64,000 nucleotides of DNA from Lasiosphaeria ovina. Lineage: Eukaryota; Ascomycota; Sordariomycetes; Sordariales; Lasiosphaeriaceae. Where the stretch lies: positions 3,162,001 to 3,226,000 of the forward strand of contig JAULSN010000002.1 of assembly GCA_033439765.1 (NCBI GenBank), given 5' to 3'. The position numbers were made by a program, and so were the translations under genes. Of this stretch, positions 14,384-54,234 are shown in pieces; the stretch's first letter is position 1; each line of letters starts with the position of its first letter. The notes below the pieces were generated by a model that worked only from the letters and a program-made list of their open reading frames with translations, was not told the origin of the DNA and made no database searches.

Positions 14384-16077
<1,694 letters not shown>

Positions 16078-25580: not shown

Positions 25581-25617
25581 GTCTAGAACTAATCTAGAGT
25601 GAGGGCAGCGGTTGGGG

Positions 25618-26573: not shown

Positions 26574-26645
26574 TTACACATTAAGTCGAGAATTTGCTGT
26601 TGGAGCCGCCGAATTTGGCTGGCGCATGTCGCTAATTTCGGCGGC
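26574..26645 (+). mobile_element. Left outer end of a DUF3435 (Starship-like) element
   Basis: It begins with TTACACATTAAG and CGAGAA, then a 41-bp block at 26605-26645. That block starts GCCGCCGAATTTGGCTGGCG and ends TTCGGCGGC, so its 9-bp ends are inverted repeats of each other. The same 41-bp block (36 of 41 identical by eye) occurs inverted at 54163-54203. In each case it lies outside and upstream of a DUF3435 recombinase gene, and TTAC lies 31 bases further out. Captains of Starship elements are the first gene at the 5' end, so this is read as a 5' terminal region. The right end of the element has not been found. Confidence 0.6.
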
Positions 26646-26943
26646 GTTGACAGTGAGGCGCACTAGTCACAGTCATGTACTTAGTACCACTTCTCCGACC
26701 CCTACGCGGCTTGACCCCTCCACCCAGCTGGTCCACAGCCGCCGCCCCACCCATGTTCCAAGCGCAAGGCTTGGGGCATTCTGTTTCTTAAGGACATGTT
26801 TCCAGCATCCCGGATTCAGGACCTGACCTCCATTTTCGGCTCCCCAGTCTCAGCATGGTACAAAATGGCGGTTTTCGCACATTTCGCGCTCTCCGACTCT
26901 GCAGTAGAGTCGGAGGACTTCGCATTCAGCTTCATTCGAAGAC

Positions 26944-29513
26944 ATGGCTTCACGTGCCCCCGTACGACCGCTCCCAAATCCCAAGCGTCACTACGGGGAT
27001 TTCATCCAACGCTTCACGTAGCAAGAATCGGAGAGGCGAATTGCAAAAAGGCCAAAGACCCTCACAGCCGCCCAGCATGCCGCCCTCCGCGAGTAGCTCA
27101 AGGACGTTCAATTCCTCAAGCCAGACTATGCCGACAACACCAAGATCAATATTACGGGCATGCTACGAAAATGGAAGAGGTAAATAGGCCGTTCTCTCGC
27201 TCAATCAGTACCGTGGCTAACCGATATGGAGATACTGCGTATCTGCCGAGCTGATAGGGACTTGGGAAGAGGTTATCAAAAGAGTAGACCGAGCAATGGC
27301 GATGGATTTCCTCCTCCATTTGTATGAAGTATACAGGATCAAGTCTTGGGGTACCTCATAGGAATATTTTCGCCAATACAAGCAGTTGTACGCCAGCGCC
27401 ATAGGTCGCTACATGGATAGGAATAATAGTAGAGAAGTTCTCAAGGTAAGTCTCGTCTTAACGTCTGGTTCTGTTCTATGACGCGAATGCTGACGGACCG
27501 TGCAAGTGGTACGATGCGACCTTAGTCCCTCGCTTCGATCTCCAGGCGCCCAACAGCGGCGGAAAGGACGTCGCCGACTCCAGCGATCTGCTAGCCCTCC
27601 TGACCTTCAATATTGCCTACGATACCAGTATCGTCTCTTGGGAGAGGCATCGCATAAACCTATCGGGATGCTACCTCGGCCTTGCCTTAACGGGGGCGCG
27701 GCCGGCCGAGTTCGTGGACGGCGAGAAAAAGATCCCTAAGGACGGGTGTTTGGAGGAGCTTTTTGGCCCAAAAGCTATTGAGGGGCGCTCCTCCGCCGGC
27801 AAAGACGAAGATTGTACGCTAGATGACGATTCCAGGGTGCTGGAAGAGATACTCTCGCAAGAGACCGTGGGCCGCGGACGTCCAAAGTGTCTTTGTTATG
27901 AAGACATCTTACTAATGGTCGTGCGCCACCCGGACACCGGCGAGGACGTCTTGGCAATATCCATCAAGTTCATCCACTATAAGGGGGTAGACAACAAGCC
28001 CAAACCGTAGGTACTCCCCAGTTCTCCTAAATGGTCTTGGGCTTAAACGATATGCAATTTAGGACCGTCTTCTTCTTCACGCTTACCAGGAGGCTGATCT
28101 TCTATCTTAATACCGTTATCGTCAGTCTTGTAGTATACGACGGCGCGTTCGCGGCGCCGAGTTTGACTAGTGTCAGTCGAGTCTTTCAAGTGAAGAATCG
28201 CGGCCTAGTCAAGTTCACGCCGCTCCGGTAGAAGAAGGAATAGCTCAAGAGGCCTGTTTTCCGCCGATTCGACGGCTCCATCATCTCAGCGAGTGCAGGT
28301 GCGGCAGAGCACACACACAGCGGGATAAGCGGGAGTCAAGACACCCATTCAGAAGATGGACCTCCTCGATATGAATCTCCAGATGGACCTCCTCCATATG
28401 AACTTCCTCCAGATGAGCCTCCTCCATATGAACCTCCTCCATATGAACCTCTCCTATACCACAAACTGAGAGACGATATAGCGCGATAATCGCTAGACTA
28501 TGGATATGAGAGGCCGATTGAGCCAAAGGCCTGGCGTAGAGGAGCAGCAAATGTAGCTAACGGTATGTCTTTCCATACCCTGAGAGTGGCGCTTATCCTA
28601 AGAGTGAACAGGTAACGCATCTGACGCTATCCGCGATCAGATGATGCGCCACGATCCGAAGTAGGCCACGTTCAATAGCGTATATATCAACGAGAAGGTC
28701 CAGTTCCACCTACAGAACGTAGTACTGGATAAGCCGACCGAAGACAGCCTGATCGGAATGCTTTCGTATATAGGCCTTATACGCGACCCCCGCGCGCGTA
28801 AGGATATGGTCCCTGATGAGGCCTGGGCCGAATTGCCCCCCGATCCGGAGATCCTCGCGCTGGAGGCGGAGAGAGCACAGCTCAAAGGCGGTCAATACCG
28901 GATTACAGGCACGGAGCACGAGGACCGGATTCGAGAGCTTACTAGGTTGATTGCCCAAAAGAAGGCAAAGCGCGCCAAGGATTTCCGGCGGGGGTTCCGG
29001 GAGGATTAGTTCGACAACCGCCCGACCTGGGAGATTAAGGCGCAGGCCAATGGGGAGGAGGAGCTGGAGTACGTCGAGCCGGCCGTCGACCTGCAAATTC
29101 CGGAGCGTGCCGAGCTCGCAGAGATCCTGCGCAACCAGCCGGAAGGGTTGAGCTCTACGGCGCTCCTTGCACTCCGGATTCGGGCGGGCGAGCTCATGTC
29201 TATCCTATGTGGCAAGCGAGAGACCGTCAAACGTGAACGCATTCGGCAAAGAGCGCCCGCCGATGTTATGGTGAAGGAGAAGTCTCCCGGCCCAGACACG
29301 TTTCCGCTCTTGATATAGAGAACGTAATGCCCGCGCTGCATCGGGGATGAGAGCCTGTCCTACGAAGAGAGGACTTTCCAATACTGTCGGCCTGCTATGA
29401 TGTACGACCACTTCGATAGGGCACACGCGAGGCATATGGGCGATGCGAAGCAGATAGTATGCAACCACCCCAAGTGTCAGGGGGGGAGGTTGAAGTTCAA
29501 GCACTTGTGTTAA
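26944..29513 (+). pseudogene. DUF3435 tyrosine recombinase (captain-type), copy A, inactivated
   Basis: A nearly full-length DUF3435 gene with recognisable exons, starting MASRAPVRPLPNPKRHYGDF. Introns lie near 27180-27235, 27447-27506, about 28007-28062 and near 28562-28620. Conserved blocks include KINITGMLRKWKR, LTFNIAYDT, the catalytic-Arg motif LTGARPAEFVDGE, ETVGRGRPKCLCYEDILLMV, IKFIHYKGVDNKPKP, RRGAANVANG and RHDPK with a following Tyr. C-terminal Cys/His pairs (CPRC, CRPAMMYDHFDRAH) resemble a zinc-finger tail. In-frame stops occur at 27019, 27094, 27359, 28229, 28241, 28487, 28662, 29007, 29316 and 29325. Copy B has Gln, Trp and Gln at the positions of 27359, 28229 and 28487, as RIP-type C-to-T change would give. 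An in-frame PPPYE repeat at 28358-28455 is absent from copy B. Confidence 0.82.
28358..28455 (+). repeat. In-frame 15-bp tandem repeat encoding PPPYE units
   Basis: About six imperfect units of a CCTCCTCCATATGAA-type sequence inside recombinase copy A. They read GPPRYESPDGPPPYELPPDE and continue PPPYEPPPYEP, creating PPxY-like motifs that WW domains bind in other proteins. They replace the corresponding region of copy B, which has no repeat. Confidence 0.85.
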
Positions 29514-29599
29514 AGTATGGCTAGTTACCAGGGTTGTAGGGTCCTGAAGTGCAGGGCACTGCAGTAGCTGTGTTGGAGTTGTGAGTGTTGTGGCCGTTG

Positions 29600-29896
29600 T
29601 GTGGGTGCTGAGGGCGCTATACCTAGATTGTTTACTTTGCCTCACAGCACCTTCTCGAAACCCCTATACGTCTTGGCACACGTAAGACAAGCCCACTAGA
29701 AGACTGTAGAATACAGAGCTGTCTACAGAGCCTATGGGTCTCTAGAACCTTCTAGAGAGCCCACCTTAGGCCTATATAGACCTGTCCTTTCCCTTAGATA
29801 GATTTCCTTCTAAGTAAGCAAGCAAGCATTGCACTCACCACTCTTTGTACTATACTTCTATAATACAACTCCTCTCCGTCTTCTTCAGCACCCACA
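29600..29896 (+). mobile_element. LTR-like element with perfect 12-bp terminal inverted repeats
   Basis: The 297-base segment starts TGTGGGTGCTGA and ends TCAGCACCCACA, an exact inverted pair with TG...CA ends as in retrotransposon LTRs. It contains CCTATATAGACC near 29770 as a promoter-like site. The next bases are GTTGGTCCCGAAG, plausible as a primer-binding site, and a similar GTTGGTCC follows an LTR-like ...AACA end at 46320. Downstream leader sequence recurs at 46358-46489. It lies immediately 3' of the recombinase copy A pseudogene. Confidence 0.65.
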
Positions 29897-30075
29897 GTTG
29901 GTCCCGAAGACCCTGACTGCAGGGCAGAGTCCCCTACAGCCTACGAGGTAGACTGCTGAGCAGAGTCCTCACAGTCTGAGTGGCAGGCCTGTAGCAGAGT
30001 TCTACAGACCTGTAAGCAGTCAGTCAGTCTGCTTCCCTCAGTGCCTTGCAGAAGCACTGTTGTATCGGACCGTAG

Positions 30076-30223
30076 GGCACAGTTCCCTACAGTCTACCCT
30101 GCACTTGATCGACCTACCCTGCACTTGGTTCCCGACCACGCTAACGCTTCCGCTCCGCCTGCTGCATTGTGCACCCTATATAGGTGCTGAGTTCAGGCCT
30201 ATATAAGCACGCAGTTCAACAGT
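30076..30223 (+). repeat. Retrotransposon leader repeat, copy a
   Basis: It shares long exact blocks with 46358-46489 in the same orientation: GGCACAGTTCCCTACAGTCT, ACCCTGCACTTGGTTCCCGA, CCACGCTA and TATAGGTGCTGAGTTCAGGC. It has an extra partial duplication (ACCCTGCACTTGATCG). It sits downstream of the LTR-like element at 29600-29896. Confidence 0.8.
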
Positions 30224-30227
30224 TCTT

Positions 30228-30372
30228 TAAGTAAGTAATAATACGTTTATGTTTAGTTTTTTACTAGAGTAATCTCAGATGTGTTATCTTACCTAGGGAG
30301 CTTACCGTTGTCTTTGACCTACGCTTACACCATTCACTTTAAGGCGTTTAGGCCTTTACATTCCTTAGTTAT
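30228..30372 (-). mobile_element. Inverted LTR fragment
   Basis: The reverse complement aligns with 31008-31153: shared blocks include GGTGTAAGCGTAG, AAGACAACGGTAAGCT and CTGAGATTACTCTAG, ending in a TATT..CTTACTT motif. The pair forms an imperfect 145-bp inverted repeat with 635 bases between the arms. Confidence 0.65.
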
Positions 30373-30928
30373 ATTACTGTCTCTGTAAAGCCCCTAGAAC
30401 TACTTATATTCTAGTAGTTCTCTAGTGGACAGAGTTAGTATTATAATATTAAGTCTAATTTCCTAAAGTATATTGTAAGGAAAGAGCACCCCAAGCACAT
30501 GCGCACACCTTTGTGTGCGCCCACCACCTGTCACCAACTGGCCTGACCACTGCCAGTTGGCACAACCACTGCTGTTACAAGGAACGGAGCCCCTGAGCAT
30601 GTATATAAGCAGTGGCCCTCGCCCACCTTCCTTTGCGAGGGCCAGGTTGAAGTCTCACACCAATGCCACTCATTGCTCACCCTTCTTCTTGCCTACATTG
30701 TGACCACCTTGATCAGGCGTACCTGCCCTCTCTTACATATATCTTCTAATAATATCTTCTAATCTTTATTACCGCCTAAAGATTATAGCTAGTATTAGTA
30801 ATAAGGCCGTAAGCAAATAACATATTTACTAGGTACTAAAAGAAATAGTTAGAACATTTTCTCTTATATTAAAAATATCATCCCTGCTAGAGTACTATAC
30901 CGTATCCGCCTCGTTTCCTAAAGCTTCT
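30373..30928. other. AT-rich retroelement debris
   Basis: AT-rich sequence between the inverted LTR fragments. It has a TATATAAG box at 30602-30609 followed by a GGCCCTCGCCC...GCGAGGGCC hairpin (30612-30645). This resembles the promoter region of another LTR. No coding signal. Confidence 0.45.
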
Positions 30929-31153
30929 TGTTATAATCCCAACCCTGTTCATTAGAAAGCCGCTGGAATACAAGTGGTTCCCGGGGCTTCACGGAGAAAG
31001 TAGTGTGACTGAGGAATGTAAGGGTCTATACACCCTGAAGTGAAAGGTGTAAGCGTAGATTGAAGACAACAGTAAGCTTCCTAGGCAGGACAACACGTCT
31101 GAGATTACTCTAGCAGGTAACTGGACGTGAACGTGTATTGCTTACTTGGAGAC
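30929..31153 (+). mobile_element. LTR fragment beginning TGTTATAATCCCAACCCT
   Basis: It starts TGTTATAATCCCAACCCT, nearly identical to the start of the segment at 45024 (TGTTACAATCCCAACCCT). Its right part is the partner of the inverted copy at 30228-30372 and runs into ATTGCTTACTT.GAGA, which also recurs near 45221. It is likely one family of diverged LTRs. Confidence 0.6.
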
Positions 31154-31798
31154 CCTGTCTCCCTATCTGAGTGATCGTGGGCACGATCTTAGTATATATC
31201 TATATCTATTCACCCAATCAATAAGTCCCCGTGTTTTCTCGTCCCCGCGCTCGGGGCTCAGAGGCAACGGGGAGCCCCCCGTTCCTTTGACGCCCCGGCC
31301 TCGGGTCCTCAACTGCCCGGGCCCTCCTGATTGGCTCGCTTGTTCCACCAATGTCCTTTCATCACGGGGCGGCCCCATCCCCTTGGCGCCCCGCTCCCGT
31401 GCAGGTGAGCATCATGCAGATGAGAATCGTGACACTTCTATCCCGCGGCTTAGCATCCGCGATCGGCTACTTGCAGCAGCCTTTCAAACTGCTCGGATAA
31501 TATGAGGTGCCTTAACTAGACGAAGCAAAATCAAGCATAAGATTTAAAACTACTAGATATCGGGCATCCGGGTGACGACCCTCGCCAGGTAGGAACGAGG
31601 AGCGGGGCGAAAGCCCCTGAGCAGTTGAGAGAGCAACTCTCATCCGCTCGGCACCTGCAAGCCAGGGGCTACCACGCCACTGGTTCCCTTCATGTCTGGC
31701 AGGCGCAGTAGAATATAAAGACAATCGTCTCCCAATCATCCTAATTCTCTTCTTTGTCCTCCAAGTCCTCAATAAGATTTGTCTCTCCTTCCTATACC
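31154..31798. promoter_or_regulatory. GC-rich spacer with promoter-like sequence for the following frame
   Basis: It contains GC-rich inverted segments (CGGGGCTC..GGGGAGCCCC near 31251-31280 and a GGGGCGAAAGCCCC hairpin near 31603-31616), then a TATAAAG at 31714 and a pyrimidine-rich leader directly before the ATG at 31799. It may be part of an unrecognised element. Confidence 0.35.
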
Positions 31799-32150
31799 CA
31801 TGCCTTCTCCTATCTTCGGCAATATCCCTTCTTTAGCGCAGATTAATAGCCCGTTATGCCTGGAAGTAGCGCGACAATTCAGCCCGACTGTGGAACGAGC
31901 ACTATCTCTAGAGCATAACAAAATCAGCCACATAAATAGCGTGGGCATCGACCTGTTCCCGGTTGAAGTTGGTATTAATAGTAGTGTGGCGGTAGAGGAG
32001 GTAGGCTATATTAACCAGCACAAAAGCTTTCTAACAACAATGCTTTGCAGCCTCAGGAGACGACTCCAAACAATCCACGGTCAGGCAGTCAAAATGGGCG
32101 TTTCCAATCCATCCAACAGGCTACCCACCAGGAAGTCCCACGCAAGATAA
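31799..32150 (+). CDS. Hypothetical protein
   Basis: A 117-residue frame starting MPSPIFGNIPSLAQINSPL, with a TATA-like box 85 bases upstream and a good start context. The first 85 residues look protein-like (EVARQFSPTVERALSLEHNK, then NSSVAVEEVGYINQHK) while the last part is basic and may be a read-through past a splice site. No family was recognised. It could be the start of a retroelement gag-like gene, given the surrounding LTR debris. Confidence 0.3.
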
Positions 32151-32867
32151 CAGCCCTACTCGATATGCACAATACAACACGCGACGGCCAGCCCTCAATA
32201 AGAACTTCACGTGGAAAGTCCGGGAAGCCGGGTCATGGGATGATTATTTTGAGGAGAGCGCGACCGTCTCGTGGAGTACGTAGTCGGAGGAGAAGCAATC
32301 GTTCCAAACGGGTAAACTAGGTATAGCAAACAATAACTATAGATGGATAGTTTGATATGGAATGGGCACTAGGGCCGACAACTTTGGAGATTAAAATTGC
32401 AGTGCGGACACAAGGGACAGGGAGATCAGCGTTAATGTCTTTAATTCTGAAACTTGAAGAGTTTTGGCATCCGACCTGAAACAAAAGATGGTCACCGCTT
32501 GGATCGGCGCGCGCTAAAATTGCGGTGCTGGCGGCTTGTTGCTTGCCGCGTTGGACCAATGGTGGGTCCTTGGCGCCGTTGAACGCATGCGGCCGGCTAA
32601 CAGCAGTTCTTTGCCGGCTGTAACGTTACCCGTATTAGATGCGGCGATTTCGACGACTGCAAACCGAGACGTGCGAGGCGCGGCCGCCGGAGCAACACTA
32701 GGAATTGACTCCATCCTCAATGAAGACATTCCCCCCGGGCAGAAGCCGCTTCGCAGCCTACATTAGAAAACGCGCCTGGCCATTTCGGGTGTCCCAAAAA
32801 GCCCAACTCAAAAAAACGCGGTCGAGCGGGTAAACGCCGTTTGATTGGTGGGATTTATCTCAGCAGG
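32151..32867. other. Unassigned sequence
   Basis: 700 bases with short open frames and no recognisable motif. One frame downstream of 32090 reads ALNKNFTWKVREAGSWDDYF, which looks protein-like but has stops on both sides. Confidence 0.35.
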
Positions 32868-33041
32868 CTCAGACCTCTTTTTCAGGCGTAGAAAATAAAG
32901 GAAGGTGCCTGCGGCACCCCCCCCCATAAAAGAAGGCACCCTAGACCGCATTCGTATCCTGTGACCCGCAAATTTTTGGTGTGGCACAGATAGACCCACT
33001 TGGACCCACATTGCACAGAACGCCTGAAAAAGAGGTCTGAG
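32868..33041. repeat. Perfect 22-bp inverted repeat enclosing 130 bases
   Basis: Positions 32868-32889 and 33020-33041 are exact reverse complements (core CAGACCTCTTTTTCAGGCG). The interior has a smaller GTGCCTGCGGCAC hairpin and a C9 run. The size and structure fit a small MITE-like element or a long hairpin. No flanking target duplication was identified by eye. Confidence 0.75.
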
Positions 33042-33437
33042 AGAAAAATGTTGCCGGGGGGGGGCATAGCTCTCTGCGCCCCATACAAATAGAAAAAATG
33101 TCAAAAAGTTATCCTGCAACTGCACAACAACAACACATCTTCAAAATATGAAAATATATGTCTGAGGATGCTGAGACGCGCGCAAGTCTTTTGGTATAAT
33201 TTTTATGTCGTTGGAGGAAGTAGAAGTGTCATTCGTAATGTCAAACGGAAAAACAACCATAGATCTCTGTCTTTTTGCCGTGACCTTCATCCCAACTATG
33301 CCATCACAACAGGGCCGAAAAATCTGAAAATTTGCACATAGAATGCCCTCGCGCAGGGCATCCTCCGCATGTAATCTTTTCCTCCTACAACCTACCTCTT
33401 CTATTTGACCTCCCGGAAGACCGCCCGCACCGCCAAA

Positions 33438-33590
33438 ATGGACGAAAATGCGCGTAAAAAGCGCATCAACGACGTGATCTGTAAGATCACAGGCGCAAAG
33501 GAAGCCCGCCAGGGACAGGTTGAGGCAGTATATCGGCTTGTACACCAGCAAAAGGATACAGTCCTCGTCGCCGCGAGCATATATAGGCCA
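33438..33590 (+). pseudogene. RecQ-like helicase N-terminal fragment
   Basis: The frame reads MDENARKKRINDVICKITGA then KEARQGQVEAVYRLVHQQKD and TVLVAAS. This matches the Q-motif-to-Walker-A approach of fungal RecQ-type helicases (typically GQ.EA...L....DT.LVAATG.GKS). The frame breaks just before the GKS of Walker A, where the sequence switches to the antisense DUF6589-like gene. It is therefore a broken 5' end of about 50 codons. Confidence 0.5.
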
Positions 33591-34503
33591 AGAACATCTC
33601 TCAAGAAAGAGCTGTTATTGCGTGCGTAGCCGCCTGTAAATAAGGAGGCGAGTAGGAAGATTTGGGGGCTTTTCTCGTCGTCGAAGTCCATATTTGCCAG
33701 CTCTTTCTGGGTCATGCGCTGTCACAATATTAGAACCATGATGGGAGAGAGACTCATGGGAATGGGATGAAGGGCCATGGGAATGGGACAGCGACCCATG
33801 GGAATGGGAGACATACCTGATTCTGTAGGACCTGTGATAAAAAGGTCACCAGATTCGGGGCTTCTTTTTTGAGCGTTGGCCAGGCTTGTTTGAGTGTGTT
33901 GTCGAGCCATGTAGTATCACAGACTTGTGCAATAGTAGTAGGCACTGCAGACTGGCCCTTGAAAGGCTCAAATACACCAAAAGCTGGCTCTTTGATGAGC
34001 ATCTTCATCTCCTTGCGTACAGTACTGCTGAAGGATGCCGCCTCCTCGACGTGGTCGTCACTGATAATCGTAATGCCTTGTGTTTTGAGGGCATCGCGAA
34101 TGGAAGGATTCATGAGAGCCTGAGCAAGTCGCCGGGTTCTTGCCCCAGCCGTTGGAGTGCCCTCCTCTGTCCACCTGTATAGAAAGGCATCGATGTTGTA
34201 TCTCTGAGGCTGATCTCCATCCCGTTGTGCGCGTTGGTAGTTGTTTTTGCGGCGTTGTGACCATATCTTCATGGTTTCCTGTAAAATATCGTCCGCTGGA
34301 TGCACAGAATCGTCTGACTGGGCGTCTTCATCGTCATCGCCGTCATCATATTGAGGGGCTTCTGCAGGGCCGGACTTCGTAGGAGAAGAGAGCTCAGGGG
34401 TGTTGCTCAGGCCAGTAAGTGAGCTTGTGTCATGCAGTCGCAGTGACAACGGCTGACTCCCGCCGGGAAGGCCTGCATCCTCATCCTCTGGCGCGCCAGA
34501 CAT
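33590..34503 (-). pseudogene. DUF6589-like gene, truncated at its 3' side
   Basis: Exon 1 is 34503-33817 (229 codons, MSGAPEDEDAGLPGGSQPLS start) and the intron is 33816-33719. Exon 2 starts at 33718 with RMTQKELANMDFDDEKSPQI and continues LASLFTGGYARNNSSFLRDV then LGLYM. The N-terminal part is acidic and Ser-rich, followed by WSQRRKNNYQRAQRDGDQP and YNIDAFLYRW. The region with an R..NSSFL...LGLYM pattern resembles the start of the DUF6589 domain found in many fungal repeated genes. After LGLYM the frame runs into the complement of the RecQ-like fragment, so the conserved domain is cut off. The intron is made largely of CCCATTCCCATGG-type repeats. Confidence 0.5.
33752..33812. repeat. Tandem CATGGGAATGGGA repeat inside an intron
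   Basis: Three copies of a CATGGGAATGGGA core spaced 21-24 bases apart, filling most of the intron of the DUF6589-like gene. Confidence 0.75.
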
Positions 34504-35144
34504 GTTCTAATGATAAAATTAGTACCGGAATGCTCAGAATTTCTCGCGCTTTCGAATGGTACTAACGGCTTATTTTTGCGACGACTTTTGGTGTTGTTGT
34601 AGACCCGTAATTAGTTGAAGGTTGGTGGTTTGAAGATCTATGCCCGGGTCGATACACATTATGCACTCAGACCAGTACAGTGGCTCTTCTTCCCGGGTGT
34701 TGTGATTGGTTCAAATGTGTATTTGTGGGTCATATGTGGGTCAATGTCCCCTAAAATCTAAAAAATCGGGGCCGCAGGCCCCCCACTGGGGCGTAGCCCC
34801 TCTTTGAGCCACGGTACTGGTCTGAGCTTGCTGAGATAAGGTGGGATCAAAGTAGGTTCGTGCTGGACAGGCGAAAACAACATCGCTTGTCGCGGCCGGC
34901 TTGGGATATCTTCGATGCCCTCGGTAACCCAGATAAATTACATGCGGCGATCGCCTGCCACGGTTGGCCTCTACAAGTCCATGACACTTTCGACTACCAA
35001 ACTTCAAGTATACAACATAAATTAGGCTGTGGCTACGGGGAATACTGTAAGCTCGCCGTCCTCATCGACGCCGACCGTGGAAGAGCAGATCAAATTGGAT
35101 CGAAGATTTGAGTGCAAGGACAAGTTTGACACGATTCGTCAAGT
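34504..35144. other. Spacer with GC-rich palindromic segment
   Basis: It contains a GC-rich stretch near 34767-34801 (GGGGCCGCAGGCCCC followed by GGGGCGTAGCCCC) capable of forming two adjacent hairpins. The rest shows no gene. It could be the promoter side of the DUF6589-like gene and the 3' side of the next gene. Confidence 0.45.
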
Positions 35145-36050
35145 TCAGTCACGAACTACCGCCGACGTAACGACATCGAGAACCCAGGGGTATGAAGACA
35201 CGTCGAGGAAGGTCGTGTGTCGCATCGCCAAGCCGAGCAGCCGCAGGCCACCACGGCCTTGAACCAAGTTAGGATGTGCTTGAAGGAATTCCCACAAGTC
35301 GCTGTGGAAGCGGGGAATGGCTTCTATCGTGACGAGGAATTCCATCAGTTGAGGCTGTTCGGCCACGAGCCGGATGGCTTTTTCAAAGGCTAGGCGTCGC
35401 AGAGACTTAATGCGATAGTCGTCGTGGCCTCCTCTTCCGCCCTTGCAGGCGGTACTCAACACTTTTTCGGCCTCTTCCCAAGCTTCGTGCGGCCAGAGGT
35501 CCCTCAGAGCCTCGATATGAACCAAATCCCAGGCCTCGAGGTCGGCAGGTTGCGGGATATCAGGTCGATCTTGCTTGTAGTACGTCCGATAGTACTGGAT
35601 ACCGGTGATGGGGGCCATAGGGTCACCGAGGAAGATGAAGCAGTACCGAACTGCATTTAAGTTAGAGATGTCGATGACGGTAATTTCGTCGTTGTTGTCA
35701 ACTTCATCGGGGGTTATCGCGATGGAGAGGGGAATCACGTCATGCTGGTAGTGAGATTCCGGCCGAGGATCGATTCCTGCGCTGACGAGGAGACAGGTCG
35801 CCGTGACCGGGAACGGGGTCACATGGTCGTCGTCCCCTAGATTGTCCCACCATTCGTCTGGGCGGGTTGCGGCATACGCGAGCTCGTGCTTGATCAGCCT
35901 CTTATTCGCTTGATGCTCCAGGACCTGGAGAACTCTCCAGCACGCCTTCGTTGCGCTAGCTCCGTAGAGCCACTGATGGTGAATAGCGGCGAGGGTTCGA
36001 TATCGATCTTGGATTTTGGAAATGATGAAGAGCTGGTGACGTTGGCCCAT
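35145..36050 (-). CDS. MGQRHQLF-type fungal protein, apparently shortened
   Basis: A 301-residue single-exon frame starting MGQRHQLFIISKIQDRYRTL and continuing AAIHHQWLYGASATKACWRV. This start is shared by an expanded family of uncharacterised proteins in filamentous ascomycetes (recalled pattern). The protein is mostly helical and lacks signal peptide, membrane helix or known catalytic motif. Family members I recall are longer, so the stop after LDVVTSAVVRD may reflect C-terminal truncation. The frame itself has no internal lesion. It lies within the recombinase-bracketed segment and may be cargo. Confidence 0.6.
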   Translation of the reverse strand: MGQRHQLFIISKIQDRYRTLAAIHHQWLYGASATKACWRVLQVLEHQANKRLIKHELAYAATRPDEWWDNLGDDDHVTPFPVTATCLLVSAGIDPRPESHYQHDVIPLSIAITPDEVDNNDEITVIDISNLNAVRYCFIFLGDPMAPITGIQYYRTYYKQDRPDIPQPADLEAWDLVHIEALRDLWPHEAWEEAEKVLSTACKGGRGGHDDYRIKSLRRLAFEKAIRLVAEQPQLMEFLVTIEAIPRFHSDLWEFLQAHPNLVQGRGGLRLLGLAMRHTTFLDVSSYPWVLDVVTSAVVRD

Positions 36051-45023: not shown

Positions 45024-45300
45024 TGTTACAATCCCAACCCTAGTCAGGGTGAACACGCTGAATGTGTGGTTCAGGTGAGCAACTGAGCTAGCGGTGTAGA
45101 CAGAACTGTAGGGACTAAGTCTAAGAGTTGTTGGGCGAATCGATGAACAATAGGGTAAGCGCCCAAGCACGGGTACATATGGGATTGCTTCCAACAGTAT
45201 GCTAAAACAGTGAATGTGATTGCTTACTTAGAGAAGTCAAGTCTATGTGAAGGCTCCGGGCCTAGCTCGTTGCCTATATGCTACTTTTGGATTCGGGGAT
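45024..45300 (+). mobile_element. LTR-like fragment beginning TGTTACAATCCCAACCCT
   Basis: The start matches the segment at 30929, and an internal ATTGCTTACTTAGAGA matches the end of that relative. The right boundary is uncertain; a TG...CA end could lie near 45334 or earlier. No associated coding sequence was seen next to it. Confidence 0.45.
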
Positions 45301-46357
45301 AGTATTCGTTACTCTGTGCCTCTTGAATACTACATCATCCTCTGATAGAAGGCTTTCCCGCCAGAGCAACAGAGAGTTCCAAATCTGCCGGCAGACAGCG
45401 CAGCCAAGGCCCACAGAGTCGTAGAAGGTACGGAGGTCGCCGTGGAGAACAAAGTACCGATTTGAACACCAGTGCCGCAGGGAGTGATCGATGGCATCTC
45501 GAATGCTAAATTAAAAGTTAGCACAGAGCATGATGCCTGGCAGTGCGTGAGCGGCCTGTTGAGAAATGGGCGATGCTTGTGGAGAGATTATTGCTAGAAA
45601 TGTCACGCAGTGGGGCCTATAGGACAGGACCCCTGCGTGTGCAACTATTCCAATTACGGTTATTGCTTACAAAGCCGCCCTGAACAGAGTTTTCCAGCCA
45701 ACAGGCCTGTCAACGGCCCTTTTGGCCGCATCACGACTTTCCTGACTACAACTCAACAACTCAATACAATCAACCTTTTTGCCCTGATTTGACTACATCG
45801 TTGTACGTGACAAGAAAACGGGCGTGCTGACTGACTTTGTGCATTGCTAAGAGATTAGGCGCCCATTAGCGGGGCTGAGTCAGCGATGCACCCCCGCGAA
45901 ACCCACGTGATTGTGTGACAGAATATGACCGACATTTTCCTCGAAGATGTAGGGTCTGAGAATCCTGAAACTATCACTACATACACTCAGACGTCTAAGC
46001 TGCAATGCATACCAACAGAATCCTATCTTGCAGCTTACCTCACCGCTGACGTGGCCGCACCCTATGCGGTATAATTAGCATAAACCGAAGAACGCATCGG
46101 AATCTCCGGATGGTAACTTTAGTCGAGGGTCCAAAATTAGGCCACACGGCTGTGCAGACTAAGCTCACCCATAGCTCAGGATCAGCTCAGGGTCAAGCAC
46201 AAACATGGAAATTGCTGAGGGCAACTTTAGGGTAAAACATAGAGCTGTTGTCGAACTATAATAAGCCTCGTATCGCTCTCAAACTGCGGTCTTCTTCGTC
46301 TAATCACCTTGTCAATTAACAGGTTGGTCCACATAAGGCCTCCTCTGCGGTATCAAT
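45301..46357. other. Unassigned, partly LTR-derived sequence
   Basis: No gene is supported. The minus strand near 45330-45524 gives a short open frame without motifs. Near 46290-46335 an LTR-like end (CAATTAACA) followed by GGTTGGTCC parallels the LTR/primer-site junction at 29890-29905. Confidence 0.4.
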
Positions 46358-46489
46358 GGCACAGTTCCCTACAGTCTACCCTGCACTTGGTTCCCGACCA
46401 CGCTACCGCTTCCGCTGCTCCTGTCACAACACTGTGCACCCTGTATAGGTGCTGAGTTCAGGCCTATACAGGAACGCAGTTTAATAGTT
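46358..46489 (+). repeat. Retrotransposon leader repeat, copy b
   Basis: The partner of 30076-30223 in the same orientation, sharing GGCACAGTTCCCTACAGTCT, CACTTGGTTCCCGACCACGC and GGTGCTGAGTTCAGGCCTAT. Here it runs directly into the copia RNase H remnant, which implies an internally deleted element. Confidence 0.8.
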
Positions 46490-47075
46490 ACTCGCGTAGC
46501 CTCTAAGCTATTACAGCACCTAACCAACCCCTCTCCGGATCACTATAAGGCCGCTAAGCAGACCATAGCTTACCTCTACTTAATACGCTTCCTAGCCGCC
46601 ACCTACGGTTCGGAATTAACAGAGGCTCTAGTAATCTATAGTAATACTTCGTTCGCTAATAACGAAGAAAGCAGAAAGTCCTTATAGGGCTACTTTATAA
46701 CCCTCTTTGGGGGACTAGTCATATAGAAGGCCAGCCGCCAAAGTACTATTACCATATTAATAACCGAAGCTAAGCTCAGGGCACTTCAAACAATAGCCTC
46801 TAAAGCTATCGCCCTCGAACGGCTGCTCAAGAGCATCGCCCTGGACCTGCAGGAACCATTAAAGCTATACTACGATAACACTCAAACTATACGCCTAGTC
46901 ATCTCAGACGATAGGATCAACACCAAGCTCAGGCATATTGATATTCAGAATATGTGGATGAAGCAGGAGTTTAAGAAAGGAAGCTTCCTAATTGACTACT
47001 AACCTACTAACGAGATGCCTGCCGACGGCCTGACGAAGAACCTCTCCCGTTAACGATTCGAGCACTTCAGAGCCA
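46490..47075 (+). pseudogene. Ty1/copia pol remnant: RNase H domain with stops
   Basis: A frame beginning ASKLLQHLTNPSPDHYKAAK continues AIALERLLKSIALDL, LKLYYDNTQTIRLV, INTKLRHIDIQNMWMKQEF and PTNEMPADGLTKNL, the standard C-terminal order of copia polyproteins. Stops interrupt it where relatives have Trp or Gln: before GYFITLFGG (TAG), before KASRQST (TAG), before PTNEMPADG (TAA) and before RFEHF (TAA). All fit C:G to T:A change. Reverse transcriptase and integrase are missing. Confidence 0.8.
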
Positions 47076-47124
47076 TGTTGAACCTACAGAACGTTCAGCA
47101 TTTGATCAATAACAATAACACAGG

Positions 47125-47227
47125 GGCTGTGGACCTACAAGCACCACAGGAAGCATCACCCCTTTCCTTTATCATCCTCACATAAGGCCTGTGGACCTAC
47201 AACGCCACAGAAAACATCACCATTTCC
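47125..47227 (+). repeat. Tandem duplication in the copia 3' region
   Basis: Two units sharing CTGTGGACCTACAA..CCACAG.AA.CATCACC, about 60 bases apart, between the pol remnant and the 3' LTR. Confidence 0.75.
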
Positions 47228-47286
47228 TAATCGGGTAATCGGCAGAGTACAGGCTTACCTATTGAACCCACAGTTAAGCCTGGGGG

Positions 47287-47590
47287 GTGTGTCGCCAAGA
47301 AATGACCCTTGCTTGCAAAATTGACCCTCTTTTACCCCTGCATATGTAAACACCTGCTTTTCTCTCCTTTGCACCCTCCCTTGCGTTCGGAATGCCCTCA
47401 ATCCGACTGCATTCCTTGCACCGGAGATTCCTTTCAATTCTACGGTCTTCTTGTGCCCGCCCTGAATACGGACTTCCGTGGAGATATTCAGTGATCCTGT
47501 TGGCTATAAGAAGGTGCTATTTTACCTGTATTTTAGACCAATCTAACCAGACAATTCAATGCTCAGTCAATCCAGATCACGTGCAACATC
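47287..47590 (+). mobile_element. Copia-type 3' LTR, copy b
   Basis: It starts TGTGTCGCC immediately after a polypurine-like CTGGGGGG and contains TTGGCTATAAGAAGG. It ends near CACGTGCAACA. The related solo copy is at 25618-25907. Its position just after the pol remnant fits a 3' LTR. Confidence 0.65.
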
Positions 47591-47799
47591 TTGGGATCAA
47601 TTTTTCCAGGTGCGCTCAAACCAGCAAGGTGATCCACGCTTCTCTTTCCTCGGCACAGATATCCTCGTCAGAAAGAGCAGTGCCCCTGAGCCTCTTGCCC
47701 TCATGATAAACATGGTAACCAGCAGGAGTAGTGCCGTCGCCTTTCCTGCTCTGGTTCTCATTGCAGACATGCACCCCCTCCCCCTTTCTGCGAGCCGCC

Positions 47800-48225
47800 A
47801 ACTGAGCCTGCTAGGCTGGATGGTGCATCACTCCGGTCTGCAAGTTGTGATGTAGGAACATGGCTGCCTCCTCTGCCAGATGAAAAACCCCTTGCCTACC
47901 TGGTTTCCACAGGAGTGATTGATCATCCGTTCTGTGCTCGCAACATTGCCGCCAGGGCACAGCTGATCTACCAGCTACCTGATGGTGGCTGCATGGGTTG
48001 TCCCGGCCCCAAGTTCATTCTTGTCTGATTAGTAGCTGCCGTCCGACAACGGGACGGCACGCCCCAACTTGTGACAATGGTACAGCGAGCTTTCCTCATG
48101 ACGCTGGGATGGAAGGACCTTCTTTCCACCTCAGCTTCCACCGCATTTCGTTACTATTTGGACCGCGACACTTTCATTCTCATCAGCACTCGTCACTATA
48201 TCCTTGCCTGCCAAAGTGTATGCTA
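47800..48225 (+). pseudogene. Decayed coding fragment of unknown family
   Basis: One frame reads PPLPDEKPLAYLVSTGVIDH, then FCARNIAARAQLIYQLPDGG. After a TGA at about 48027 it continues QLVTMVQRAFLMTLGWKDLL and STAFRYYLDRDTFILIS, ending at a TAA near 48222. The composition is protein-like and the TGA sits where a Trp codon would fit. The YYLDRDTFIL pattern faintly recalls fungal 2EXR-type proteins, but not enough to name it. Confidence 0.3.
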
Positions 48226-48308
48226 ACGTGCGAATAGTTTTTCAAACGCTCGATTGGGACGAGGACGTAGAATTAGGGCTTTGCTGCATTAGCGAGTAAG
48301 TTTCACGC

Positions 48309-48341
48309 TTAACCCTAACCCTACACCTCACCCTAACCCTG
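48309..48341 (+). repeat. Short interstitial telomere-like tract
   Basis: The sequence contains TTAACCCTAACCCTA, then CACCTCACCCTAACCCTG, i.e. two pairs of CCCTAA-type units (the fungal telomere repeat is TTAGGG) separated by a degenerate spacer. It is internal to the accessory island. Confidence 0.7.
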
Positions 48342-48475
48342 TGTCTAGTACATATAGAACGCCACTACGCGGCATTCTTAAGCTTTTAAACAACATCATT
48401 GTTGTTGTTGTTTCGGCCATTTCGGCCATAGTTTATTTCATCATCTGGGTACATTACGACATCCGCCAACGTTAA
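48341..48475 (+). pseudogene. Short membrane-peptide homologue (copy 3)
   Basis: The frame reads VSSTYRTPLRGILKLLNNII, then VVVVSAISAIVYFIIW and ends VHYDIRQR with a TAA. It aligns with the peptides at 25440-25580 and 25982-26176: a YR....R..L.L..NI motif, a 15-residue hydrophobic helix, and a basic end. No upstream start in a good context is visible. It lies in the opposite orientation and directly follows the telomere-like tract. Confidence 0.4.
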
Positions 48476-49181
48476 TTAGGTAAGCTCGATTTTTTTAACA
48501 TCTTGGCTTCGCAACCCGTGAAGCATGGTCTGGAGTTCCAGCGCTGTGTGGAGGTGTCGGCTGGCAAGCGCTGTGTCTGACCTGGGACGACGGACTGGCA
48601 CCTTCTCGTGGTGTCCTGGGTGAGTACCTGTACCCCTTCACGGGGTGCAGGGAAACGAAGACCAGTCCATCTTGTATTTAGATCTCTCTTCGCTAGTTAG
48701 CTGTAAGCTCAAGTTGAAATTCGGCGAGCGTTAGAACATAAATGAACGTACTGCCTTGTGTTACCGCGAGCAAGGAAAGGTGTTTGTGTAACTAGGCGTT
48801 GAAGACTTCAACTCGTCCCACTTTCAGATTCATCCACTTTCATTGGTCCAGTCAGTCTCAAAGAGATCCCTTGGGCATTGCCCATACCAAGGTAATCCGT
48901 AATCACGATAGAATAACAAGGTCAACGCGACAGAAGTCAGACTCGGCTTGTTCAAAGTCCAAGGAAGTGGAATTAAGCGTTACACCGGTATAACTTCATA
49001 TCGGAATACTTCCTGGGCGGAATAAACAAGTACAAAATACAAACTACAAAACTACGCAACCCTATTCCATGTATGGCACTCAAGGCCCAAAAGACTCCGC
49101 CCAATGATGCTCCCAAATGACGCGCGCCTCACAAGCCTGCGTATGTAAATCCAGACTGTCGTGTTTTCCGAGAAATACACA
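48476..49181. other. Spacer with no gene seen
   Basis: About 700 bases without a recognisable coding or RNA feature. Confidence 0.45.
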
Positions 49182-49709
49182 TCAATAGTCCAACGCCTCG
49201 CCGCTCAAGATGCTCCGCAGAATTCCCACGCCTAATCCCTCAACAGCTTGCTCCATCTCTTTTTCCCCGACACAGCTGGCAACGCGCTTCTCGTCCGCGA
49301 GCCCATGTATATTAGCAAAAATATCCTTTCTTCGTCTCCGGCCCGGCGTCTGGAGCACCGCAAACGACCCCGTCTTGCCGTCAACGGCAGAGATGAGCGA
49401 CAGTGTCTCCAGACTTCCCACCACCTCCCGAAACTCGGAGCTCGAGAGCGGGTGCAACACCGAGTCTCGCGTGTAAAGAAGGCCGTAGGCGTCGTAAAGG
49501 ACCTTCACCGTAGGGGCAGCAATCTACGACTTGGACGGTGTTCCGGCGGCAGATGCTGCGGCTGCCTGCGCTGCTCGATTCCTCTGCTCGATCGCTATTA
49601 GCGAGCACAATGCTGCCTTTTGCTGGAGGTTGAGCGTCTTCAGCCGCTGGTTCGTTCCGTTGCTGAATGCGGCCGCAGTGACCTTGTTGGTGACCCTCAC
49701 CAACCCCAC
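49182..49709 (-). pseudogene. Cdc6/Cdc18 C-terminal fragment
   Basis: A continuous frame reads VTAAAFSNGTNQRLKTLNLQ, then QKAALCSLIAIEQRNRAAQ, a single TAG at 49526-49524, then IAAPTVKVLYDAYGLLYTRD, HPLSSSEFREVVGSLETLSL and a GEKEMEQAVEGLG end. This is the winged-helix C-terminal region of the replication licensing ATPase Cdc6 (Cdc18). The AAA+ core is missing: homology stops abruptly near 49710. The TAG replaces a likely Gln codon. It is therefore a truncated copy; the functional gene must be elsewhere if the species is normal. Confidence 0.7.
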
Positions 49710-49779
49710 ACGTAGGAGGCCAAGCTGACTTGAGATGGAAGCAGGCGATCTCCGCCGTCACCAAGCGGCACCAACGGCG

Positions 49780-50225
49780 GATTCCAAGTTCCCGAGGGGG
49801 GTAGATTGGGAGGTCAGACCGGAGGGTCTCGCGTGGGATAGAGAGTGGTGCTTGGTACACCAAGGCTCGGGCCAAGCGCTGAGCCAGAAACGACACCCCC
49901 AGATGGCCCTCTCGTCCGGCCGTCGCTAGACTTTGGCCGAGGCGAGCTCCGTGTAACATTCGCAGGGTCTATCCCGCGCCATTTACCACGCGAGGTCGTG
50001 GTGCCGCTATCCAAAAACCCGACGGTGTTCCAGCCGCCCGAGTCGTTTCGATGGCGTTCGTCGCAGGTCTGCGGCGAGGAGATATTGGCGCAGACATATG
50101 CGTCGCCGGAAATCAACGACTCTTTCACGGGGGTCCTGGGGGTGTCGGCGGCCGCGTCGTTCCGGGCGAACGTGGCCATTGCGGCGTCGGACCCCGGGGC
50201 CGCGCCGCCGTATGCCGAGGAGTGA
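49780..50225 (+). pseudogene. Molybdenum cofactor sulfurase C-terminal (MOSC) fragment
   Basis: The first frame reads WEVRPEGLAWDREWCLVHQG, then ALSQKRHPQMALS, the MOSC N-terminal barrel signature (GL..DR.W.LV....LSQ...P.MAL). After a frameshift near 49905-49915 the next frame continues VRPSLDFGRGELRVTFAG, REVVVPLSKNP, CGEEILAQTYASPEIND. Relatives are the C-terminal domain of Mo-cofactor sulfurase (hxB type), which activates xanthine dehydrogenase and aldehyde oxidase. The NifS-like N-terminal domain is absent, and the reading ends without the usual terminal Cys-rich part. Confidence 0.6.
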
Positions 50226-50579
50226 GCCAAAGGCCCTCGCGTGGCGTCGCCCCTATAATTGGAGGGAAGACAGGGCGGTTTCTTCTGTGGAACGTGCCAC
50301 AGTGTGCGGTTTGCTTTTATTCCCTTTCTTTCTTTCTTCTTTCTTGCTCTTGCCGGTTTTTGCGGGCTGCTCTTATTACTTTGCTGTGGCGAGCAAGCAG
50401 CCGTCGGGGCTCGTTTCCTCGTTGTGTAGGTTAGGTTGTTTACTTGCCTGACACGAGGCCCCTGAGCGGACAGAAACCCAACGCTTTCAGTTGGGATTTT
50501 TGCAGGTCTCGGGGTTCCCTTTTTCGACTATTTCTTTCCATAAGACGACAATACCGGAAGTAGAACTCACCGTTTTACA

Positions 50580-50741
50580 ATGTCGGCGGCGAGGGCGGCG
50601 TGGGTCATCCACGCCCCCGTACCCGCGTCGCCCCTGCGCTTCCTCCTCGGCGGGCACTGGTGGCGCTGGGACGCGACCCATCTCCCGCACCGGTACTGGT
50701 CGCCGGTCCATTGGTGGGAGAGCGGCATCTCGATAGGATGA
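50580..50741 (+). CDS. Small Trp-rich hypothetical peptide
   Basis: A 53-codon frame starting MSAARAAWVIHAPVPASPLR and rich in Trp (GGHWWRWDATHLPHRYWSP, then VHWWESG). It could be part of another decayed host gene like its neighbours. There is no splice or family support. Confidence 0.2.
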   Translation: MSAARAAWVIHAPVPASPLRFLLGGHWWRWDATHLPHRYWSPVHWWESGISIG

Positions 50742-51113
50742 GCCAGTTGAGGGTTTGGTGTGGGTATGGACTTGGCTGTGTGTCTGTCTGTGTGTTATCT
50801 CGGTGCCTACTCGAGAACGAGAAGATGGTCCTTAGTTACCTAGGTTTGGCTTCGGCTTTGCATCTCGCCAGGTGAAGCAGGTTCCGGCATCGCGTCTGGC
50901 TGATTTCGCTACAGAAATGGGGGCTCGGTTCGGAATCACAGCATCAAAGAGAATGGGTAGCGCAAGCATGCAAGTTTTGGCTCTTGCCGAGACGTTCCCA
51001 GTGTGGTGACAAACCAACATACTTTACTACTACAATTTCCTACACAGGGACAAAAACACACCACAGTGTCTGCCGCCGCCATGTCCTATCGAAATACAAG
51101 ACTCAGCAGGCCC

Positions 51114-51606
51114 CTAAGTCCACCACGGCTTTGCCGGCACCCCGGCTGCTGACGTAGAAGCTGCAGACTTGACGACCCTCAGCAGCGCCGCGCAGTCCAC
51201 GTCCTTGTGGCCGGACAGCTTTCGCGTCTGCTGCTCCAGCCACGCAATGACCTCGCCGTAGCCCGTCTGCTTCTTGACGAGCACCTGTCGACACGCTACC
51301 GTGGCGAGCCTGGGTTTGTTTCTCGCGAGTTAGCGACGGTACAAACGCGGCAGCGGGGTGTGAACATTGAAAGCGGATATTAAATAGGAGGTCGAGTGCG
51401 GAGTACATAGAGAGAGACAGGGACGGGAACGGAAACGGAAACGGAGCAGAGGGAGTAAAAAAGCGCAAAACGGAGACAAGGACAACACAACACATACCAC
51501 GCCAGCTGTGCCTTGTCGACGGCGAAGCTGTACCCCGGATTGCGGAGCTTCCGGGACCTGCTGGCCAGCAACAGGAACGCGACGTCGACCAGGCGCCTAA
51601 TGGTGT
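51114..51606 (-). pseudogene. Spliced 3' fragment of an unidentified gene abutting recombinase copy B
   Basis: Two exon-like segments on the minus strand: 51606-51498 after a CTTAG acceptor, and 51309-51114 after CCCAG, with a GTATGT donor at 51497. Together they read TIRRLVDVAFLLLASRSRKL, RNPGYSFAVDKAQLAW, then LATVACRQVLVKKQTGYGEV and IAWLEQQTRKLSGHKDVD, ending at TAG 51116-51114. Frame and splice phase agree, so this looks like the last two exons of a real gene. The region upstream where earlier exons should lie is recombinase copy B, so the 5' part is missing. Family not recognised. Confidence 0.5.
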
Positions 51607-51649
51607 CTAAGACGCAGAGAGAACGAAAAGGCGGTCAGCAAAGTCTCAG

Positions 51650-53624
51650 TCTGGCGCTTCGAAAACTCCCCAAAGTGACAATCCGCTTGTCGCGCTGCGC
51701 CCGTTTGCTTCTGATCATGTCCGTAAGCTGTCGAATCTTTGCCTCGTCTCTATAGCCCTGGAGCCGATACTGTCCCTGCTTGAGTTTCGCCCGTTCCTCT
51801 TCCAGTGAAGCAATCTCCGGGTCCGGCGGCAAGTTCGTCCATACCTCGGCCGGGACCATATCTCTTGTGGCACGGGGATCTCGGGTCAGGCTAACGTGCG
51901 CAAATAACCGAAACAACTGGTCCTCCGTCTCCTCCTCTAGGAATGCATTTTGAAGGTCGAAGTTGGCGACTTCATTCAGATATGCGCTCTGGAAAGTGAA
52001 GAATTTGGGGTCATGCCGCAGCATTTGATCGCGAACAGCATCTGGCGCATTCACTAGGAGAGTAATTAGACTAAAATCAACCCTCTTCTCCGGGAATAGC
52101 GACATACTATTGGCAGCATTGGCAGCGCCTCTCCGTCCAAACCTAGGCGCCCAGGCCTTCTCGAATCCCGCTTCTAGGCTCTGTCGAGCCATGTTGTCCC
52201 TAAGTATAGAATATTGCATAGCTTCGTCCTCGGACAAGATACCACCACGAAAGGCCCGACGAAAAAACGGGATTTTAAGCTTGGACTTCTTCCATCGTAG
52301 AGGTAAGCAGTCCTTGCCGGGTGGAATCTTGGTCGCAGGCACTGAGCTCGCATCCTTCAGGGAATCCGCATCAAAAGCCCCGTCGGATAGTGCAAGAGAG
52401 AGGAAGAGCAGAACAGGACAGAAGATCAAGTGCTTTGGAAAGGTTGAAAAGAAAGATAGTCCTAGAACCTATTAGTATATATAATTCGCTACGACCGGGC
52501 GTCAACATACGGTTTTGGCATATTATCGCATCCCTTATGATGAATAAATTTAATCGACATAGCCAGTCTCTCTCGCCCCGTAGCAGGATCGCGGATGATT
52601 AGCATTTGTATATCCTCGTAGCAAAGGGCCTTTGGACGGCCCCTTCCAATGGTCTCTTGGAGCAGAAGCCTATCGAGCTTGCTAGAATCCTCGTTTGTTA
52701 CCTCTTCGCTGGCTCGCTTGCCTTGGTCGTCGACTGCGCCGCTGTCACCGGCCGACATAATAGCTTTCGACCCAAAAATCTGCTCAATGGAGCCATATTT
52801 CGGTCTCTGCTTCTCGTTATCCACTAGCTCGGCCGGCCGCGCTCCAGTATAGCATATTATCATATAGCAGCCGGCCATGTGAAGACGCTGCCGTTCGAGG
52901 GGGGAAATACCGGCATCATACGCAATATTGAAAGTCAGGATAACTCGCAAGGAGTCTACATTGAGAACCGGCTTGCCGTCGATATTAGGCGCATGCAGGC
53001 CAAAGCGAGGGACGAGGACGTTGCCATGGTACTATTAGCGGGTAAGTAAAGGTCTTCAAAGGACGGAAGGGAATTAAATTAAGCATCTCGTACTTTGTAA
53101 AGCTCCTCTCCTTCATATCATTTCTATTAGGAAAGTTCCCGGTCATTTGGGTATAGAGCAGCTGAAGTTGACGGATATATTGTTGTGATGTGCCCCGGGA
53201 TTTGATATTATGGTTTTCACAAACCCAAAGGAAGAAGTCTTGAATCGTTGCGCGAGGTAGGCTCTTGATCGTATCTCTCCAGTCTCCAACGTTCATTTCG
53301 GTACAGTAACGTTATCTATTTCGAAAGGTTAGCTTATTGGGGTAGAAAAGGCTTGGATGAGACGTAGTAAGGTGTTACGGACCGCTTCCATTTCCTCAAG
53401 ATACCGCTAATATTGATCTCGGTTCCAGGTGCGTAGTTCCGCCTGATGAAACTGACGCCCTCTAGGGTCGTTCGGTGTGCAGCATGCTCCTCGGCCGACA
53501 GAGGCGCTGGCCGTCGCTTGGCTAGCTCTCGATTGTGTGCTTCTTGAGTGGTAATACTATTGAGGAAATCGGCATGATGGTTGAGGACGCCATTCGCCGC
53601 TGTCGGGCGACGGTGAACGGCCAT
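51650..53624 (-). pseudogene. DUF3435 tyrosine recombinase (captain-type), copy B, 3'-truncated
   Basis: It starts MAVHRRPTAANGVLNHHADF (53624). Blocks in order: INISGILRKWKR, YCTEMNVGDWRDTIKSLPRA, GTSQQYIRQLQLLYTQMTG, LTFNIAYDAGISPLERQR, the catalytic-Arg motif YTGARPAELVDNE, ETIGRGRPKALCYEDIQML, IKFIHHKGCDNMPKP, LPLRWKKSKLKIPFFRR, PRFGRRGAANAANS, LRHDPKFFTFQSAYLNEV (likely nucleophile Tyr) and RDPRATRDMVPAEVW. Four short introns are implied. Most blocks are open, but joining some requires a phase I could not satisfy (around 53290-53385, 53030-53095 and 52430-52470), so small indels or unusual splicing are possible. Homology to copy A stops after MIRSKRAQRDK near 51680, and the Cys/His tail is missing. 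Confidence 0.78.
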
Positions 53625-54162
53625 GGTTCCGGATAGCATCCAGGGTAGTAGTTGCACGAAAATTGCCCCAATGCTCCTAAAAGCGGCCGAGAATGTGACG
53701 TAGGTAAGTGGTTTTGAGTAATTCGGACGACGCACTGTGTAGAGCTTGATAAAAACAATAGCACAGGAAGAAGTTTTGTCAAGCTTGAGGAGCCATGAGG
53801 CGGCCAGTTTGGCTTGTTGGTTACGAAGAACTCCAACGGGGCGGCGCGGGCACAGATCCCAGATTCCACCATTAAATGCCTCCGCCGCATGCCTCTTTGG
53901 CTGTAGGTGCTATTATCGAGCAAATGTAGCATTTAGGTTGAGCGCCGCTTTCTCTGTGTAGAGTTGGTTTTCTGTCTCTCGGAGCTATTTCCAAGCGACC
54001 TAATCGTTGGCTGTGACGGAGACGGAGACGGAGATGCCCGACATCCTGCATAAGCCAACCCCCCTGTAATACGCCAAGGCTGCGCTACGAAAGTTGGATG
54101 GATGAGACAGGTACGGAGTACCCACACGGTACTTGTAGGAGACCTGTGCGCTTGGTGTTAAA

Positions 54163-54234
54163 GCCGCCGAAAATGGCAGCATACGCCAGCCAAATTCGGC
54201 GGCCAGAACACCGCTTTCTCGGTTTATGGAGTAA
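54163..54234 (-). mobile_element. Right outer end: inverted copy of the DUF3435 element 5' terminus
   Basis: Read on the minus strand it begins TTACTCCATAAA at 54234, then CGAGAA, then the 41-bp block at 54203-54163. The first 20 bases of that block are identical to the left copy (GCCGCCGAATTTGGCTGGCG) and it has the same 9-bp inverted ends. TTACTCCATAAA fits the TTAC(N7)A pattern that I recall being reported for Starship insertion sites. Recombinase copy B starts 540 bases further in. The end lies 390 bases from the MRH4 stop codon, so the element border is next to host sequence. Confidence 0.6.

Follow-up and report, generated by a model that had tools for sequence, protein, structure and literature searches.

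Do two captain-type recombinase genes that face each other across 27.7 kb of DNA belong to one large mobile element, or did they come to lie there separately? This question is raised by a 64,000-nucleotide stretch of the genome of the ascomycete Lasiosphaeria ovina (the window; G000:C12:3162001-3226000; host genome 51.7 Mb in 32 contigs). Introns in the DUF3435 genes, long terminal repeat debris and genes of fungal type indicate a filamentous fungus as the host. The initial annotation had described two genes of the Starship captain family DUF3435, copy A on the forward and copy B on the reverse strand, which bracket a cargo and share a motif on their outer sides. Pfam matches to DUF3435 (PF11917) were obtained at both places, on these strands, and both genes read inward. 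Our answer, to which we give a probability of about 70%, is that A and B are independent, decayed 5' parts of captain-type elements of two different sub-types, which point in opposite directions within a repeat-rich island, and that their ends belong to a genome-wide family whose members would be moved in trans.

The shared outer motif was also confirmed. The island is bounded by inverted arms of 81 nt (26572-26652 and 54156-54236, complementarity 77%), and a 5'-end profile built from 7 other genome copies matched the window at the B end (54233 to 54089, E 1.9e-38) and at the A end (26587 to 26680, E 1.6e-13). The outer TTAC occupies 26574-26577 in A and 54234-54231 in B, and is part of a target-like edge pattern, TTAC(N6)AA in B and TTAC(N6)AG in A. 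BLAST of B's end against the genome gave 41 rows, and a 19-base pattern with at most 2 mismatches was found at 41 sites (reversed control, 1). The 5' end occurs in about 43 genome copies that have one common outer boundary and differing flanks. Once 3 spurious rows out of 46 had been removed, TAC was seen exactly at the edge of 34 of the 43 copies.

This 5' end is linked to captains. DUF3435 genes were found at 14 loci (18 genome-search rows merged by place), and four of them, A, B, C28:729905 and C27:2537864, are preceded on their own strand by a 5' end no more than 5 kb away. With random placement, such loci numbered 0.05 on average and 2 at most in 5000 trials. Since four is far above chance, we regard A and B as captain-type 5' ends, and the alternative that the motif is a common repeat unrelated to captains was ruled out by the same link. 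The initial annotation had taken the termini for captain 5' ends and would have given this up if they were common repeats unlinked to DUF3435 genes. The link holds, but with about 43 copies the termini are indeed common and are not confined to captains.

The DUF3435 matches of A cover two pieces, 27462-28007 and 28665-29006, and those of B cover 52492-53031 and 51638-52468 (E 1.1e-32 for the latter). A has stops at 28662, within the conserved HDPK...TFNSVY motif, and at 29007, 29316 and 29325; a further one at 28008 may fall in an intron. The family match of B covers profile positions 96-335 of 418, and no counterpart of the C-terminal pieces of A was found in B. In its putative exons B retains the GARPAE box and the tyrosine of QSAYLNE, which we presume to be catalytic from tyrosine recombinases generally. 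Each of the two is the first gene behind its 5' end and faces inward, as in a Starship, but the likeness is one of position and domain: A is a pseudogene and B is truncated, so neither of the two captains first described is intact.

A and B are 51% and 54% identical in amino acid sequence over two pieces and, judged from their sequences, belong to different captain sub-types. Among the loci compared, the closest to A is the captain relic at C28:728.9k, with 73-76% DNA identity in three longer stretches and 86% in a 43-nt stretch; the C-terminal pieces are 60-66% identical. The closest to B is the element C23:3721.7k (83% over about 1.1 kb). Repeat-induced point mutation (RIP) was considered as the cause of captain decay and rejected, since the RIP composite indices of A (-0.27) and B (-0.32) are near that of window positions 1-20000 (-0.37). 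A RIP-like signature was seen only at 29510-31200 (TpA/ApT 1.82, composite index 0.90).

Comparison of copies revealed a common 3' end as well, which terminates in GTGCAGCACCGTGTTCNNNNWTAC. The genome contains 24 matches to it at up to 1 mismatch and 33 at up to 3 mismatches (reversed control, 4). For 19 of the 24, a 5' end lies upstream on the same strand within 15 kb, where random placement gave a mean of 0.27 and a maximum of 3 in 2000. At up to 3 mismatches 22 of the 33 pair, three of the pairs resting on 3-mismatch ends. The 22 paired elements are about 0.46-14.3 kb long. Captain remnants were recognised in at least three of them (C27:2532-2542 kb, C23:3721.7-3724.8 kb and C12:1076.6-1088.6 kb), and a fourth, at C32:1981 kb, retains a 34-bp piece of the B leader. 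These counts are minimum values, since the searches score the best candidates only and the interior of the 14.3-kb element was read in part. Thus the small paired elements are not large elements with a captain of their own, as Starships are.

The shared ends are short. When the first 300 bp of 10 copies were compared pairwise (45 comparisons), matches mostly ran for about 60-130 bp inward from the 5' edge; related pairs matched over up to about 280 bp in a few cases, and one pair matched in the interior only. A matched other copies over 24-79 bp. Three comparisons of 3' ends found matches of 73, 81 and 92 bp, at 92-93% identity. Five elements (L016, L020, L022, L046 and L052) form a second set in which the interiors match too.

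With both ends in hand, the island itself can be judged. The 3' profile gave nothing convincing in the window, the best match (E 0.48, 25545-25609, forward strand) lying outside A. On the whole contig C12, no family 3' end lies downstream of A on A's strand, and none that is unpaired lies on B's strand and side; the two that do lie there, about 0.98 and 2.6 Mb off, are both already paired. The closing 3' end with direct repeat of a Starship was thus recognised for neither A nor B, and the 27.7 kb are not established as one element. The interior is mixed, with direct repeats that look like long terminal repeat (LTR) debris, a 1,986-bp repeat and two intact open reading frames (ORFs; Table 1). 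The first view of the island as a composite element with a 27.7-kb cargo is thus not borne out, as no cognate 3' end was found, A and B differ in sub-type and there are other repeats in the interior.

Table 1. Features of the two captain loci and of the DNA between them (window positions)
Feature	Position	Strand	Remarks
Element A 5' terminal block	26574..26680	+	TTAC outer edge; dyad GCCGCCGAA...TTTCGGCGGC inside
Captain A	26944..29510	+	DUF3435 pseudogene with in-frame stops; C-terminal Cys/His-rich part readable
ORF of 1228 codons	36698..40381	-	Intact; no Pfam match; between the captains
ORF of 554 codons	41833..43494	+	Intact; read divergently from the ORF of 1228 codons; no match in Pfam or PDB
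Captain B	51690..53624	-	DUF3435 gene, several putative exons; family match stops near 51690
Element B 5' terminal block	54089..54234	-	TTAC outer edge

An unlikely alternative, though the strongest of those considered, is that a full Starship-like element extends through the island from the 5' end of B (or of A), with the other captain nested in it and the 3' ends no longer recognisable after decay or divergence. Both captains do point inward directly behind their 5' ends, two intact ORFs lie between them, and nested Starships are described for Gaeumannomyces in the parts of PMC11905480 and PMC12134995 that deal with them. Against such an element speak the missing 3' end in the window, the lack of an unpaired one on the right strand and side of the contig, and the nature of the two ORFs. 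Their paralogues lie at C29:2950955-2956678 in the same divergent layout (identities 34%, and 25-37%), and contig C29 carries no listed end of the shared-end family. The two ORFs therefore seem to be a conserved two-gene unit with no assigned function, and they are not evidently cargo of these ends. For the 554-codon ORF, no relative was found in the prokaryote contigs scanned, and a single-sequence structure model was uninformative (mean predicted local distance difference test score, pLDDT, 32.7). Nested or colliding insertions of the two 5' parts, as the initial annotation had considered, are possible.

Several repeats lie in and around the island. The 1,986-bp repeat (32854-34839) is 100% identical to C30:1599925-1601910, and at C1, C6, C28 and C29 its halves are separated by about 4-10 kb, which suggests a deletion derivative. 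On C32, a relative ends 136 bp from a Helitron_like_N match. Two LTR-like repeats, 25677-25906 and 47364-47586, match at 82-94% in three stretches; the second seems to lie downstream of retroelement coding debris, and the first is flanked by a 113-nt repeat pair (25448, 25989). A repeat at 29888-30243, found partly at 46358-46492 as well, is 92% identical to positions 1-359 of L003, just outside the 5' end of the A-type element C28:728.9k. Two CCCTAA units lie close together at 48313-48336; they are telomere-like and possibly due to chance.

Many of the paired elements carry genes. Family 1 has 13 copies of 1.31-1.49 kb (pairwise identity 0.89-0.98) with one common ORF, which is oriented against the captain direction. 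This ORF is open for at least 235 codons from stop to stop in 11 of the 13 copies, and the first ATG, used here as a provisional start, is retained in nine (198-200 residues). The mean ratio of nonsynonymous to synonymous substitution rates (dN/dS) over these nine is 0.56, with dN below dS in 31 of 36 pairs, which are not independent of one another. No Pfam match was found in the two stretches of the protein scanned, and the PDB gave a single chance-level match (E 2). A genome search with the protein returned 30 rows, of which 16 were at least 78% identical. At two of these 16, C31:1605.6k and C1:7532.4k, the family-1 interior is present at 84-89% DNA identity and both terminal blocks are lacking; C31:1605.6k also matches the interior of the 3' profile (positions 3-104 of 171), not its terminal part. 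These end-less relatives fit gene capture between the ends, which is the direction we infer, or old copies that lost their ends. In another family-1 copy, L062 (C31:1403823-1405146), the 3' end is followed by 10 nt that equal the family 5' end and then by unrelated sequence; the 10 nt may represent a site similar to the target, or what is left of a tandem neighbour since lost.

Longer members carry other genes. There is a GGACT gene at C12:2245k and an NPHP3_N/NACHT-type gene at C12:2683k. At C27:2541k an APH-type protein is encoded beside a DUF3435 gene, and the outermost 5' bases are replaced. C12:1076k gave weak kinase and PigL_N matches, below the Pfam cut-offs. At C27:3797-3805k, where no 5' end was recognised, a B-like captain relic and a clean 3' end flank the coding sequence of an ankyrin/NPHP3_N protein.

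Helitrons capture genes, have a dyad close to one of their ends and have ends that are asymmetric. Our elements resemble them in this, and the genome has 7 Helitron_like_N matches, so the ends might be those of a Helitron-like element with which captains are associated by chance or by hitchhiking. We consider this very improbable. All 7 matches lie outside the paired elements and more than 20 kb from any listed end, the closest approach being about 27 kb; TAC occurs at both edges together with the TTAC(N6)AA pattern; and the 5' end precedes captain loci far more often than by chance. A Helitron origin of the short elements was also rejected because no Helitron protein lies near the listed ends. 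Even less credible is one composite 27.7-kb unit in which both captains and the intervening DNA move or moved together: the segment is bracketed by inverted 5' ends, but the paired elements of the family have one 5' and one 3' end, not two 5' ends, the captains are of two sub-types and both broken, and recombination between inverted sites is expected to invert a segment rather than excise it.

The junctions of the family resemble a TTAC(N6)AA-like target. In 21 distinct junctions, including two with imperfect ends, A follows the 3' TAC at position +7 in 16 and at +8 in 13. The binomial tail for A at +8, the position named by the published site, is 0.0012; the preference at +7 was noticed afterwards. 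In the portion of PMC12153272 on target sites, those of Hephaestus and Nebuchadnezzar are given as TTAC(N7)A and TTACA(N5)AAT, respectively. The 5' end of the element itself, TAC TCCATA AA, is similar to the target, and head-to-tail tandems could therefore form. One is present on C23, where a family-1 copy ends with TATAATAC and is followed by the 5' end of a captain-bearing element with a single TAC between them. This is the product expected if one element inserts at the end of another.

On balance, we think that captains mobilise in trans small captain-less elements for which two short ends (about 115 bp and 85 bp) suffice, and that different lineages of these elements carry different captured genes. 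A captain would act in trans on the two ends, which would be joined in an excised circle, and strand exchange at TAC would insert the circle into a TTAC(N6)AA-like target.

Several observations weigh against the independent 5' parts in the island and against movement in trans. Since no A-type 3' end has been established, a diverged one could have been overlooked in the window. Some of the 3'-end matches are due to chance, as 9 of the 33 have 3 mismatches and the reversed control gave 4. Moreover, a 3' partner within 15 kb is lacking for 21 of the 43 5' ends, 10 of the 14 DUF3435 loci have no such 5' end nearby, and the family-1 gene at the two end-less loci could derive from old elements whose ends were lost. 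Neither an excised circle nor an empty site nor an insertion polymorphism was observed. The genome yielded no clearly intact captain of the A or B sub-type; present activity is therefore doubtful, and present action in trans is not demonstrated.

Outside the island, the DEAD-box helicase gene on the right flank (putative MRH4) was confirmed by its domain, and the CorA gene on the left flank gave no match among the 10 window ORFs scanned, a subset of the ORFs. A tRNA gene lies to the right of the DEAD-box gene (56931-57009).

The notable result is a family of small elements that have both ends and the target in common with captain elements. In most of them no captain was found, and several carry genes. 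Starships are usually found by their captain and their great size, and thus kilobase-sized captain-less relatives would be missed by captain-based searches. No description of short captain-less Starships was found in the literature searched, which did not include preprints. Should captains indeed act in trans on ends of about 200 bp in total, it becomes possible to test what transposition requires, how cargo is captured and how much of fungal gene movement captains drive.

Among known systems, Cryptons too are a few kb long, encode a tyrosine recombinase and have short direct repeats. Their recombinase has a DNA-binding domain of its own. Pfam gave only DUF3435 in the pieces scanned, from B and from A upstream of its C-terminal piece. 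The recombinase groups of Cryptons and captains are very distantly related, as stated in a section of PMC12134995. With the Phoenix family, our elements share a TTAC-like direct repeat next to a DUF3435 captain, and a part of PMC12257634 gives ATTAC and TTTACT as examples of Phoenix repeats, so the repeat alone does not settle the family. However, the Janus target, A(N3)TTACTA(N2)A(N15)CT in the target listing of PMC12153272, fits our junctions less well, with A at +2 in only 5 of 21.

Hephaestus-type Starships are alike in several respects. The DUF3435 captain lies directly behind the 5' end and faces inward (A, B, C23 and C28), the shared-end family has a TTAC(N7)A-like target with direct repeat, the ends are short and asymmetric, and some members carry NACHT-type and other genes. 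Our paired elements differ from Starships in their length and in that no captain remnant was found in most of them (at least three of the 22 have one): Starships of 34-688 kb are reported for one genus in an excerpt of PMC11905480, and for Aspergillus fumigatus the smallest mean is about 19 kb among the table entries listed from PMC12153272. In turn, miniature inverted-repeat transposable elements (MITEs) and other non-autonomous cut-and-paste elements share short ends with a coding element, have many dispersed copies and presumably receive their enzyme in trans, as we suggest here. They depend on another enzyme class, and unlike them our elements lack long inverted repeats and many copies carry genes. 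Such gene shuttles would, on balance, stand to Starships as non-autonomous elements stand to other transposons.

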